Origin: Amycolatopsis granulosa
Lineage (GTDB): Bacteria; Actinomycetota; Actinomycetes; Mycobacteriales; Pseudonocardiaceae
DNA length: 64,000 nt
Assembly: GCF_011758745.1 (NCBI RefSeq)
Contig: NZ_JAANOV010000001.1
Location: 1,550,001 to 1,614,000, forward strand
Direction of reading: 5' to 3'
Program-made: the position numbers and the translations under genes
In this document: positions 1-3,605 of the stretch, piece by piece
Position numbering within the stretch: the stretch's first letter is position 1
How the letters are laid out: every line of letters begins with the position of its first letter
The notes under the pieces: generated by a model
Databases searched by the model: none
What the model was told of the DNA's origin: nothing
What the model saw: the letters and a program-made list of their open reading frames with translations, nothing else

Positions 1-30
1 TTCGGGAGAATGGGCTTCAGACACTGACAT
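1..30 (-). CDS. start of a partner gene running off the left edge
   Basis: Only ten codons are inside the window. An ATG at 30..28 opens a +1 frame (M-S-V-S-E-A-H-S-P-E) that overlaps the last 14 nt of the preceding gene, an arrangement typical of translationally coupled operons. If the upstream gene is an ABC-three-component effector, this could be the middle component or the SMC-like ABC ATPase, but nothing in ten residues shows that. The start is inferred only from the overlap and the open frame. Confidence 0.4.
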   Translation of the reverse strand, partial: MSVSEAHSPE

Positions 31-1219
31 CAACAAGAAGACTCTCGAGTTTCAACTGAAAATCAGGGTGCCATCCGATCCTGTAACCAGCATATCCGTC
101 AGCGATAGCGTGGATCATTCCTCTTGTAAACCATGGCTGATCGAAGCGGTCGCGCAGGCGTGCGCGTGCGTCGCGCGCTAAGAGAGAAAGAACCTCCCGG
201 CCAGCATGCTTCTCCTCAATTTCTCCCCTTGCTACTTGCTCGACCTTCTCGTCAAAAATTTGCTCCCATTCATCGTGCAGAGCACAGGCGAACCGATCCA
301 ACTCCACTTCGGCAACCAAATTATTCCTCAGCCACTCAGAGCGCTGGGCATACGATCTGTGATAGTCACGTATCGCTTTCCAGAGTCTTCTGTTATCGAG
401 GGCTATCCAGAAGAGTTGCTGCACGAATTCGCGGTCGTGGAATGCCCGCGAATCCTCTTCAACGAAGGGAGAGTTTTGAATCGCTAAAGAAACTGGAAGC
501 GTATCCGATCTGAATTGATCCACAAGGTCTTCCACGTAGCTTTGCAGATCGTGGCCCGTTATCGCTGGCAGGGAACCGTCCAGTAGGCGGACCGCGATAC
601 CCGCCCACCACCCCTTAATCTGCTGCAGAAAGCTGTCCTCATTGCCTCGTGCGATAGCGTATCGAAGAATACTAAGCAGTGGTGCGTCGATCTCACGCGC
701 AATTGTTGAACCGTCTTCTACTACAATGCATTCGACTAGACTCAAACGGTCATGTACTTGGAGGTCGAGAAATTTTTTACGCCAGTCAGCTGTTTTCTTG
801 CTCTTGGATTCCTCTGCAGCCGTAACGAGAGCCTGTAGTGCAGCCTGTACGTCTCGTCCCGAATCTGAGCGAAGGCACGCAAGCGGGCTGCCCACCGGCG
901 CAGTTGCTGTGGTGACTAGCCGGAGGATCGGACTACTACCTTCCCAGCTTCTCCTCATGTCCATCCAGACATTCAGACTTCGCCACACGTCCGCGTTGTA
1001 GGCTGTGAGGTCGGATGCAGGTTGTACCTGATGTTTCGTTTGCAGCAACTCGGAAGGAGTGCCGTCGATCCCGAACTCGATATCGTCCAGCGCTTCCAGC
1101 CTAAGCTGACACGCCGGATCATCACTCGCTCGCTTCGCCAACTCGACTAGCGCCCACATGCACTGATGAAAGTAGCCGAGCGCGTTGCCTGCTGCACCGT
1201 GCGAGCTATCGGGCGACAT
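17..1219 (-). CDS. PD-(D/E)XK-like protein, probable ABC-three-component conflict-system effector
   Basis: A 400-residue protein. Seen: an N-terminal GYFHQ..WAL helix (15-24), then E42, D45-D46 and QTKH at 60-63. This spacing resembles the PD-(D/E)XK core of Cap4/DUF4297-type nucleases. The C-terminal third has QRSEWLRNNL, a DEWEQIF helix and a closing GYRIGWHPDF motif. I associate these from memory with the C-terminal domain shared by ABC-3C anti-invader systems. No signal peptide or membrane segment is visible. The base composition is clearly more AT-rich than the rest of the window, with codons rare elsewhere here. It is the first visible gene of an operon leaving the window, with a plausible promoter just upstream. 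The nuclease and ABC-3C assignments are inferred from motifs; a DUF of unrelated function is possible. Confidence 0.6.
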   Translation of the reverse strand: MSPDSSHGAAGNALGYFHQCMWALVELAKRASDDPACQLRLEALDDIEFGIDGTPSELLQTKHQVQPASDLTAYNADVWRSLNVWMDMRRSWEGSSPILRLVTTATAPVGSPLACLRSDSGRDVQAALQALVTAAEESKSKKTADWRKKFLDLQVHDRLSLVECIVVEDGSTIAREIDAPLLSILRYAIARGNEDSFLQQIKGWWAGIAVRLLDGSLPAITGHDLQSYVEDLVDQFRSDTLPVSLAIQNSPFVEEDSRAFHDREFVQQLFWIALDNRRLWKAIRDYHRSYAQRSEWLRNNLVAEVELDRFACALHDEWEQIFDEKVEQVARGEIEEKHAGREVLSLLARDARARLRDRFDQPWFTRGMIHAIADGYAGYRIGWHPDFQLKLESLLVDVSV

Positions 1220-1256: not shown

Positions 1257-1487
1257 GACGGCAATCGGGCGGCGCCTCAGCACCCTCACTCACCTCCGCG
1301 TAGGTTTCCTGTAGTTGAGAAGTTTCTGTACGTCTTCAAGCCGCCCTGCCGGGCGGGCGCGCGGGCCGAACTGGCGCGCGGCCGAGCTGTCCCGCTCCGC
1401 TCTGCACGGCCGCGCTCAACGCCGTCGGCCGGCGCGCGCAGGGCGGGGGAAGGCGCACGAGAAAGACACGGAGCACCCGAGACAGGC
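1257..1487. other. intergenic stretch without a recognisable gene
   Basis: This stretch lies between the promoter of the element gene and the long palindrome. The composition changes within it, from the AT-richer element side to very GC-rich sequence with runs of CGCGCG after about 1340. Frames open through it give only Arg/Ala/Pro-rich translations typical of shadows. I see no gene, tRNA or repeat. Confidence 0.5.
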
Positions 1488-1716
1488 GGCTGACGGTAGG
1501 CGCCACCTTTCCGCGATCGCCGGATGGTCAAAGCCGGGCCGGGTGCCGTCAACCCCGCTTCGCGCCGATCACGCCTCCGGTGGTCGGCTCGTGCACGCAC
1601 AGTCACGTCTCGTAGTTCGGCTGTGCGGCGTGATCGGTTACAAGGGTTGACGGCACCCGGCCCGGCTGTAGACGGCTTTGGATCGCGGAAAGGTGACGAG
1701 CGGCCAGTCAGCAGCC
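1488..1716. repeat. long imperfect palindrome (about 195-230 bp)
   Basis: The left arm 1503-1556 and right arm 1644-1697 are near-complete reverse complements. Shared blocks include CACCTTTCCGCGATC at the outer ends and GCCGGGCCGGGTGCCGTCAA at the inner ends. The inverted match continues inward (CCGATCACGCC near 1566-1576 against GGCGTGATCGG near 1627-1637, and GCACAG against CTGTGC) and outward (GGCTGAC near 1490 against GTCAGCAGCC near 1707). The whole can fold as one cruciform or RNA hairpin. No open frame in it resembles a protein. It could be a non-autonomous mobile element or a dispersed intergenic palindrome. Confidence 0.8.
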
Positions 1717-1855
1717 CGTTGAACAGCGTTGTTGCGCCCGCGCGGCCCGCCGTGGCTGACATCCAATTGTGACATCAACAGGGGCGGTGGGGAAATCCGA
1801 AGGACGAGGACGAGCCGAAGCAGCGAAAGCCCAGGTCGCCAGCAGCCACCATGTA

Positions 1856-1898
1856 GCTGTTAACCGAAGGGTTGTTGGTTCGAGTCCAACCGGGGGAG
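1856..1898 (+). other. truncated tRNA-Asn(GUU) 3' part, probable integration attachment site
   Basis: The sequence from the anticodon loop (CTGTTAA) through the variable region, the T arm (GTTGG-TTCGAGT-CCAAC), the acceptor strand CGGGGGA and discriminator G matches an actinobacterial tRNA-Asn. The 5' half is absent. The bases before the loop (CATGTAG) cannot pair with CCGAA, and no D arm or 5' acceptor strand lies upstream. A 3' tRNA fragment of this length next to atypical-composition DNA is the usual signature of the distal att site left by a tRNA-targeting integrase. The intact gene would then lie at the other end of the element, left of the window. Confidence 0.8.
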
Positions 1899-1904
1899 CT
1901 TCCA

Positions 1905-1929
1905 CCCCAGGTCAGCGACCTGGGGTTTT
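1905..1929 (+). terminator. intrinsic terminator behind the tRNA-Asn fragment
   Basis: A 9-bp perfect stem CCCCAGGTC / GACCTGGGG with a 3-nt loop is followed by TTTT. It sits 7 nt after the tRNA 3' end, so it is probably the native terminator of the tRNA-Asn gene carried with the attachment site. Confidence 0.85.
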
Positions 1930-2172: not shown

Positions 2173-2853
2173 TCACACGCTGCGCAGCACCGACACCACG
2201 GCACCCAGGATCACGGCCCGGTCCCCGTCGATGACCTCGTAGGCCGGGTTGCGGGGTTCGAGGTAGACGTGCCCGTTGCGGCGCCGGTAGACCTTCACGG
2301 TGGCCTCGTCGTCGATCATCGCGGCGACGATCTGTCCCGAGTGGGCCTCCGACTGCTGGCGCACCACCACGATGTCGCCGTCACAGATCGCGGCGTCGAT
2401 CATCGAGTCGCCGCGCACTCGCAGGCCGAAGACCGTGCCGCGGCCGGTCAGCTCGCGCGGCAGGGTCAGGGTGTCGTCCTGGTGCTCGATCGCCGAGATC
2501 GGCGTGCCGGCCGCGATGTCGCCCACCACGGGCACCGGCACCGAATCTCCCGGCGTGGAACGACCGGGCGACGCCAGGAAGGCCCGCACGTCGATCGGGC
2601 GGGACATCGTCGCGCTGCGGCGCAGGAAACCCTTGTCCTCCAAGGCCGCCAGGTGCTTCGACACCGACGACGAGGACCGCAGCCCCACCGCCTCCCCGAT
2701 CTCCCGCGTGTTCGGCGCGTACCCGTAACGGTTCACCCAATCGCGGATCGCGACGAGGATGCGCTGCTGCCGCTCCGGCAGCGCCGACGGGTCCAGGTGC
2801 TCGAACAGGTCAAGATCGTCGTAGGAGGCCACCCGCAGAGGGTAGAGGCTCAC
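2173..2853 (-). CDS. LexA-family repressor with autocleavage domain (LexA paralogue)
   Basis: 226 residues. An N-terminal winged helix (about 25-80) has recognition-helix residues SSSSVSKHL. The peptidase S24 half has the cleavage pair A115-G116 (DIAAG), catalytic S150 (RGDSM) and K187 (ATVK). All parts needed for RecA-stimulated self-cleavage are present. The start is the GTG at 2853, which overlaps the TGA of the upstream methyltransferase as GTGA, so the two are translationally coupled. In actinobacteria the housekeeping lexA normally sits beside nrdR, not dnaG, and the HTH here departs from the usual STSSVAxHL. I therefore read it as a second LexA-like regulator with its own regulon. No classical SOS box (TCGAAC-N4-GTTCGA) was found nearby. 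Confidence 0.85.
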
Positions 2854-3605
2854 ACCCGCGCCACCGCGAACACCCGCCGGAACGGGAACCACGTCGTCCC
2901 GTCCGCACGCGGCGGGTACGCCTCGGTCAGCAGCGGCGCCAGCTGCGCCCGGAACCGCTGCCACTCGTCGTCGTCCAGCACGGCCCGCACCGGGCGCAAC
3001 GCCGTCCCGGTGATCCACTCCAGCACCGCGTCCGGCCCGCTCAGCCGCTGGAGGTAGGTCGTCTCCCAGACATCCACCGCGCACCCCGCGTCGGCGAGCA
3101 GGTTCGCGTACTCGGCGGGCGAGGAGACCGCATCCTCGCCGCGCAGCACCCCGTGCAACGCCGGCCACTCCGGACGGGAAGCCAGCTCACGGGTCAGCAC
3201 GTGCGACGGCGACCCCATGTTGCCCGGCACCTGCATCGCGAACCAAGCGCCGGACGGCAGCGCCGCCACCCACCGGCGCAGCAGAGCGCGGTGCTCCGAC
3301 ACCCACTGCAGCACCGCGTTCGTCACCACGACATCGGTGTCCGGCGCCGGCATCCACTCACGCACGTCCGCCACCCGGGCGTCGATCCCCGCCGCGCGAG
3401 CCTGCGCCACCATCTCGGGCGAGCTGTCCAGCGCCTCCAACACCGCGTCCGGCCACCGCTTCGCCAGCGACACGGTGAGGTTGCCGGGCCCGCAGCCCAG
3501 ATCGACCACGCGGCGCGGCGCGGCGGCGTCGATCCGCCCGATCAGGTCGTAGAACGGGCGTCCCCGCAGGTCCGCGTAGTCGAGGTACTTCGCCGGATCC
3601 CACAC
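2850..3605 (-). CDS. tam: trans-aconitate 2-methyltransferase
   Basis: A 251-residue class I SAM-dependent methyltransferase. Motif [11 protein letters not shown] lies near 35-44, followed by an acidic LDSSP loop and NAVLQW in the motif IV area. The start [24 protein letters not shown] and the late WFPFRRVF segment are characteristic of Tam. Tam methylates trans-aconitate, a spontaneous isomerisation product of cis-aconitate that inhibits aconitase, in the cytosol. The GTG start at 3605 coincides with the last base of a perfect 16-bp palindrome whose TACGAT lies 6 nt upstream, so the gene appears to have a leaderless internal promoter. It is coupled to the downstream lexA-like gene. Confidence 0.9.

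Follow-up and report, generated by a model that had tools for sequence, protein, structure and literature searches.

The elements closest to the one described here are the AICEs of the pSAM2, pMEA100 and pSE211 type, which likewise have a tyrosine integrase at the 3′ end of a tRNA gene, an excisionase (Xis), the replication protein RepSA and a transfer protein of the FtsK/SpoIIIE kind (PMC3218068, available text). In pSAM2, RepSA nicks a double-strand origin and Pif limits redundant transfer, and the mdp-nud-xre cluster described in the same source matches the HD, Nudix and HTH genes of the present element. For the AICEs of Streptomyces, the available part of PMC9513070 describes cargo that varies within a family, integrases that switch between sites and different elements at one site, together with RM and AIPR abortive-infection cargo; the accessible text of PMC11706625 places AICE genes near defence genes. 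AICEs, the attR in a tRNA gene and the carriage of defence genes are all already known. The present locus departs from these descriptions in its particulars: the term “Asn” is absent from the main text of PMC3218068, whose available part describes no fixed origin-side defence slot, and the available part of PMC9513070 gives neither a single cargo position nor a base-precise junction at a conserved module. No report of a single cargo slot on the origin side was found in the available texts of the open-access literature; reviews or subscription papers may contain one.

The window, that is, the whole stretch of 64,000 nucleotides that was analysed, corresponds to C1:1550001-1614000 in the single-contig genome (5,623,989 bp) of Amycolatopsis granulosa. 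A first-pass annotation had read a 43-nt piece of it as the 3′ fragment of a tRNA-Asn left behind by an integrated element. Positions 1857-1899 do run from the anticodon loop to the discriminator base of tRNA-Asn, the 5′ half being absent, and ARAGORN calls no tRNA there. The full-length gene, tRNA-Asn(GTT), was found to the left of the window at C1:1539612-1539685; an integrase adjoins it, the tRNA gene ends in the same 43 nt, and its 3′ part is the partner of the scar. The length of the repeat needed correction: the tRNA part is 43 nt, as had been said, and the exact repeat is 45 bp, the attR core (Table 1) being identical to C1:1539642-1539686 at 45/45 positions (E 8e-17). The two copies lie 12,214 bp apart, core to core, and since they are identical the point of crossover within the 45 bp is not placeable. 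A 14-nt core of the fragment has two perfect matches in the genome, and the third match to the fragment is the end of a tRNA-Lys with a similar terminator. A second, intact tRNA-Asn elsewhere, which would have spoken against integration, was sought and is absent: ARAGORN, applied to the region of each of the 50 tRNA matches from Rfam (48 distinct sequences), assigned the Asn anticodon only once. As the genome has this single tRNA-Asn, the cell presumably depends on the attL copy remaining functional.

Table 1. Features of the scar and its surroundings, in window coordinates.
Feature	Position	Strand	Support or remark
LmuC-like / MC3 gene, 5′ end	1..30	-	Profile matches; remainder left of the window
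LmuA-like / ABC-3C CTD7 protein, cargo gene nearest the module	17..1219	-	CTD7 4.6e-31 (Pfam), LmuA 5.3e-50 (PADLOC)
Conserved non-coding module, ~383 bp, probable origin region	1316..1698	+	Left edge 1316 base-precise in 29 copies
Candidate double-strand origin: 21-nt motif 1320-1340, hairpin 1341-1356	1320..1356	-	Recurs in RepSA replicons
Inverted repeat, 24-nt perfect arms 1532-1555 / 1644-1667	1532..1667	+	Possibly single-strand origin or Rep-binding region
Two TGACATC repeats, candidate arm-type integrase sites, attR side	1757..1779	+	4/4 aligned elements
attR core, exact 45-bp copy of tRNA-Asn 3′ part	1856..1900	+	100% identity; contiguous with the tRNA in the empty-site genome
Native tRNA-Asn terminator, chromosome side	1904..1926	+	Same place in G018
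lexA, first chromosomal gene past the scar	2173..2880	-	Syntenic in the empty-site genome; 97% identical in G018

We read the fragment as the attR of an AICE, 12.2 kb long, that entered the only tRNA-Asn gene of the genome; this reading, to which we give a probability of about 0.96, follows from the exact repeat, the gene content, the empty site, the arm repeats and the sibling elements. The empty site is found in G018, a genome of another species of the genus, which of the 18 other genus genomes searched matched best (93% over 1,045 bp). There an intact tRNA-Asn is followed by the terminator and lexA with no element between, and the same two genes lie upstream. When the flanks of the element are joined at the 45-bp core they align with G018 without a gap over 385 bp, terminator included, with 367 identities and 18 mismatches (95%). 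The fragment standing by itself where the element is lacking, another observation that would have told against integration, was not seen either: in G018 the 43 nt are simply the 3′ half of an intact tRNA. The claim that the tRNA's own terminator follows the fragment also held: it forms a 10-bp stem (-18.9 kcal/mol, z -4.66, 0/200 shuffles equal) and stands directly 3′ of tRNA-Asn in G018. A terminator consensus scan, with one found against 0.5 expected, is not telling alone.

The tRNA-Asn region was compared in 16 of the 18 other genus genomes (all except G010 and G011). In G008, G009 and G001 the tRNA-Asn runs into a native-like terminator, and there is no match to the element probes. At L106, L107 and L110 an integrase of a different type lies beside tRNA-Asn and a native-like terminator is still found 3′ of the tRNA, so that a terminator alone does not mark an empty site and G018 is the only proven one; in G018 lexA follows the terminator. 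The integrase at L106, L107 and L110 is about 30% identical to that of the tRNA-Lys element of the present genome (see below).

The genes between the two copies are of the AICE kind. From the tRNA onwards they comprise a hairpin, the integrase, the excisionase, RepSA, a small ORF, a two-part Tra, a SCO3933-like protein, an HTH protein, Nudix and HD proteins, a GntR-type regulator, an XRE-like gene, LmuB, LmuC and LmuA, after which come the non-coding module and attR. The tyrosine integrase next to tRNA-Asn matches Phage_integrase at 2.7e-26 (Pfam) and the adjacent 59-aa excisionase matches HTH_17 at 1.1e-13. RepSA matches PF20199 over its full length (4.4e-148), its score of 343 bits being below the NCBIfam equivalog cut-off for RepSA of 700. 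Tra takes up two ORFs, the one lacking any match in Pfam and the other of the FtsK kind (FtsK_SpoIIIE PF01580, 1.9e-15; plasmid TraB weak, 37 bits against an NCBIfam cut-off of 800), and AICE2 is laid out alike. The NUDIX and HD domains are clear (5.7e-20 and 1.2e-11, Pfam). The remaining assignments are looser: the GntR-type (KorSA-like) regulator has HTH matches that are all under the NCBIfam cut-offs, the SCO3933-like protein reaches 66 of the 80 bits of that family (NCBIfam), the Pfam matches of the HTH protein are below cut-off, and the XRE-like gene (80 codons, L034:15311-15550) was named by eye from its HTH sequence. An Rfam search of the element gave only tRNA at E ≤ 0.1. TGACATC repeats are present in both arms of attP, including the int side (AICE1, G007, G005, G003). 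With att repeats at a tRNA 3′ end, Xis, RepSA, an FtsK-type Tra and GntR and Nudix regulators, the element is an AICE by every sequence feature tested, and it is probably self-transferring.

The supposition of a low-GC element whose boundary coincides with the scar has to be revised on two counts. The element is real and of the RepSA type, with low GC confined to its cargo (0.53, against 0.67 in the backbone), and the change of composition is not at the scar, the low-GC run stopping some 540-640 bp to its left: GC is 0.541 at 1-1219, 0.573 at 1220-1315, 0.702 at 1316-1698 and 0.643 at 1699-1855.

Tyrosine integrases at tRNA 3′ ends are common to AICEs and to prophages or phage satellites, and the scar might have come from one of the latter. 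The RepSA, FtsK-type Tra, Nudix and HD genes speak against this origin and no capsid, portal or terminase was found among the element proteins scanned with Pfam and NCBIfam, on which grounds we reject it as highly improbable. Partial tRNAs can also come from duplication, and a duplicated or chance pseudogene without any integration is the least probable reading of all, rejected in view of the base-exact 45-bp repeat flanking an integrase-bearing element, the native terminator still in place, and the gap-free empty site of a relative in which that terminator is contiguous with the tRNA.

Integration into tRNA-Asn can be pictured as follows. The tyrosine integrase recombined the tRNA-Asn gene with an attP in which the 3′ part of that gene is copied. 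The attL keeps a working tRNA-Asn whose 3′ part is probably derived from the element and which now reads into the hairpin of the element, and the attR keeps, as a scar, the original 3′ part with its native terminator. Int together with Xis could release the element as a circle, which RepSA would replicate by the rolling-circle mode from the module, and the FtsK-type Tra would move DNA between mycelia. The Nudix protein may act like Pif of pSAM2 in keeping redundant transfer down, and the cargo may protect the host, and hence the element, against phages or rival plasmids. Cargo would probably be swapped between co-resident siblings by homologous recombination through their shared flanks.

Such siblings exist in this genome, which has three RepSA elements in total, at tRNA-Asn, tRNA-Lys and tRNA-Pro. 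The AICE at tRNA-Lys(CTT) (C1:4490292-4501322, L042) has a backbone about 90% identical in DNA, another integrase and another cargo, namely a reverse-transcriptase defence gene (RT_UG22) paired with a HEPN gene; at its attR stands a 49-nt piece of tRNA-Lys (96%). The element at tRNA-Pro(GGG) is distant (C1:5249598-5260121, L175:1098-11621) and is bounded by a 38-bp repeat. A RepSA profile search of the genome contigs gave 17 loci, in Amycolatopsis, Prauserella and Actinophytocola. Relatives of Int at E ≤ 1e-60 occur in 4 of 19 genus genomes, and in each of these four genomes the closest relative (79-100% identical) adjoins tRNA-Asn, a scar marking the other end of the element. The same element occupies tRNA-Asn in G007 (Int 97%, RepSA 94%, Tra 98%, module 94%) with a different cargo.

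Some tRNA-Asn loci are rearranged. At L096 (G016) and L106/L043 (G017, A. tucumanensis) the tRNA-Asn and the attL side have the opposite orientation to lexA, and tRNA-Asn and scar are separated by a broken AICE; this suggests an inversion that broke in or close to repSA, or possibly an assembly error. L107/L044 (A. thermalba) shows an apparent tandem insertion, in which the AICE is followed by an internal att site (36 nt), beyond which come the end of an integrase, 85% identical to that of the present element across 114 residues, and a portion of another module. At L098:3963-11060 (G006) the interval between tRNA-Asn and scar yielded just the module and an operon of type I RM, with no match to RepSA, Tra or Int; this is either a decayed element that has retained its RM system or a cargo-only form.

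The cargo of the present element is, by its profile matches, an operon of the Lamassu/ABC-3C type, situated between the XRE-like gene and the origin-like module. The LmuA, LmuB and LmuC profiles are found together with CTD7, MC3 and DUF3732 in one gene row, as in the described systems: the LmuB-type ATPase (LmuB 1.9e-121) has a DUF3732 C-terminus (4.3e-47), the middle component matches MC3 (7.6e-31) and LmuC (1.6e-6), and the match of the LmuA-like protein to Pfam covers residues 265-388 only, its N-terminus having none. The element continues beyond the left end of the window, where C1:1539612-1549999 holds the remainder of LmuC, LmuB and the AICE backbone. The operon is divergent from its relatives in the family and its role in defence is putative; relatives of LmuA at E ≤ 1e-30 occur in 12 of 296 other family genomes and are at most 38% identical.

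Between cargo and attR lies the conserved module, which is probably a rolling-circle origin. Matches to it at E ≤ 1e-8 are found in 25 of 297 family genomes, this one included, and none among plasmid or phage records. An alignment of 24 copies has a mean column identity of 78%, and a 64-pair structure is formed in 98.2% of its cells, with two-sided changes at 13 of the 64 pairs (46 cells). Prediction of the structure from this very alignment and the relatedness of the copies both tilt the result in its favour. The covariation score is 0.110, compared with 0.044 when shuffled (0/500) and at most 0.027 when slid. RepSA and Tra accompany the module in 8 of ten further matched regions. The other two, L145 and L149, have an origin-like motif without RepSA or Tra in the 20-kb region and are possible remnants. 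At five matched places BLAST covers only the first 42-111 nt of the module, with L146 also retaining a weak piece of the stem.

The proposal that the 21-nt motif is the double-strand origin of RepSA draws on its recurrence outside the module. Motif and hairpin occur, with 3-6 mismatches, in four plasmid records with RepSA (4 of the 17 RepSA-bearing plasmid records were compared); as good a match was given by 0/100 first-order simulations in three of them and by 1/100 in L151, whose 6-mismatch motif is not relied on. The tRNA-Pro element, which was found via RepSA alone, has a 5-mismatch motif some 540 bp away from its attR (0/200 simulations as good); a hairpin goes with it, and the strand is the predicted one. 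The best motif match lies opposite rep in 29 of 30 loci; 26 of the 30 were obtained via the module and four independently (L046 and L101 being one element). The exception, L043, was scored as same-strand because two elements lie there in inverted orientation; taken one by one, both motifs are opposite the rep of their own element. The rep-sense strand at the motif reads hairpin-CTTGAAGACGTA, which would suit a CTTG-A nick as in phiX174. By eye, the 21-nt motif also resembles the pC194 origin as quoted in PMC5037232, a resemblance that would place the nick on the other strand than the CTTG-A reading.

The module could instead be a conserved RNA, or the transfer locus (clt), and not a replication origin. 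Covarying folds suit RNA as well as single-stranded DNA, and the element must have a clt somewhere, none having been identified. An RNA is disfavoured by the Rfam result, and both identities by the recurrence of motif and hairpin in distant RepSA replicons, where their orientation to rep is unchanged and the rest of the module is not recognisable; we hold both to be unlikely.

The cargo slot ends at the module. Twenty-eight slots were considered, from 20 elements, 7 more and L147, where about 55 bp separate backbone and module; L057 and L147 are essentially empty. Sibling AICEs, some with backbones at least 90% identical, carry other systems in the same slot. At least one protein from 22 of the 28 slots was scanned with PADLOC (all but L054, L057, L144, L146, L147 and L148; in some slots the scan covered a part of the ORFs, 1/4 in L052 and 2/3 in L050), and 11 of the 22 gave a match at E ≤ 1e-20, a match here meaning sequence likeness and not demonstrated defence. 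The 11 are Lmu, DRT RT_UG22 + HEPN, OLD-like, XhoI-like RM, type I RM (3), YobI-ATPase/Tmn-like, PDC-M36A, Shedu and PifA-like. Three further slots have a CHAT, NACHT or STAND NTPase in Pfam (STAND just under cut-off), and in the remaining 8 PADLOC matches are weak or absent; two backbone proteins (HTH and HD), scanned as controls, gave nothing better than 2.5e-7. Four low-GC slot proteins with weak or no PADLOC match (L106:16479-18752, L050:648-3269, L046:1963-3914 and L045:87-4044) are candidates for unknown defence systems.

Slot GC is 0.48-0.65, mostly 0.50-0.57. Among the first 20 elements 18 slots bear ORFs, and in 16 of these the module-proximal ORF points away from the module and starts 0-163 bp from it (longest-ORF starts); L052 of Actinophytocola and L056 of A. 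orientalis are the exceptions. A promoter at the edge was considered, given that cargo genes start near it, and by eye no common -10 element was found at the junctions. A group II intron or IS91-like end at the edge was considered from general motifs and dropped. On the backbone side the slot starts, among the matches listed, inside the XRE-like gene where that gene is present, the first 59 residues being conserved and the tail variable; of the first 20 loci examined for the gene, 13 have it clearly (L106 and L043 overlapping), L052 has it weakly and in six it was not found, and this limit is rougher in A. orientalis, A. oliviviridis, L098, L143 and L144.

The edge on the scar side is much sharper. 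In 29 copies the majority identity of the alignment columns is 0.28-0.41 from -20 to -2, 0.90 at -1 and 1.00 from +1 to +4; the count leaves out L132 and L137 (left end outside the BLAST alignment), L139 (which coincides with L113), the second of the L148 copies and those named loci that duplicate G loci. A left flank is common to one pair only, L112 and L120 (87%), both with type I RM. The degenerate module remnant of L145, which is the region of L132, has the edge TGGGG, as against TGAG in the 29.

It is rather probable that this edge simply marks the limit of selection on the origin and that cargo is turned over by ordinary homologous recombination with no special mechanism. The module, and the XRE-like gene where present, are conserved enough for it, and AICE families with exchanged cargo are described in the available part of PMC9513070. 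Against this stand the jump of column identity at one base in 29 copies and the lack, in our copy, of any leftover flank common to the copies that are 94-96% identical to it in the module; plain recombination accounts for exchange, and not for unrelated cargos having first met the same base. A more tentative proposal, which we consider doubtful, is that the RepSA AICEs of the Pseudonocardiaceae have a plug-in defence slot whose junction would be fixed to one base by the rolling-circle origin, cargo being exchanged through that origin (Rep-assisted or origin-to-origin). The DSO-gene-SSO elements of staphylococcal rolling-circle plasmids are alike in that their cargo borders a double-strand origin, and they have been proposed to spread without a transposase (PMC5037232, as available). 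The arrangement differs: in those elements the gene lies between DSO and SSO, whereas here the cargo lies between the backbone genes and the putative origin, with the covarying stem on the opposite side of the putative DSO from the cargo, and no SSO was recognised.

The attR scar itself is textbook, and its value is that it leads to a family of small conjugative elements whose backbone is conserved and in which a single slot varies. Half of the scanned slots contain a recognisable defence system, most of them unlike one another, and the slot is a handle for finding unknown defence systems in actinobacteria, PADLOC matches being weak or absent in 8 of 22. It also raises the question of how defence genes change carriers, and whether a rolling-circle origin serves as a docking point; if the plug-in proposal were true, these elements would import new anti-phage systems without a transposase.
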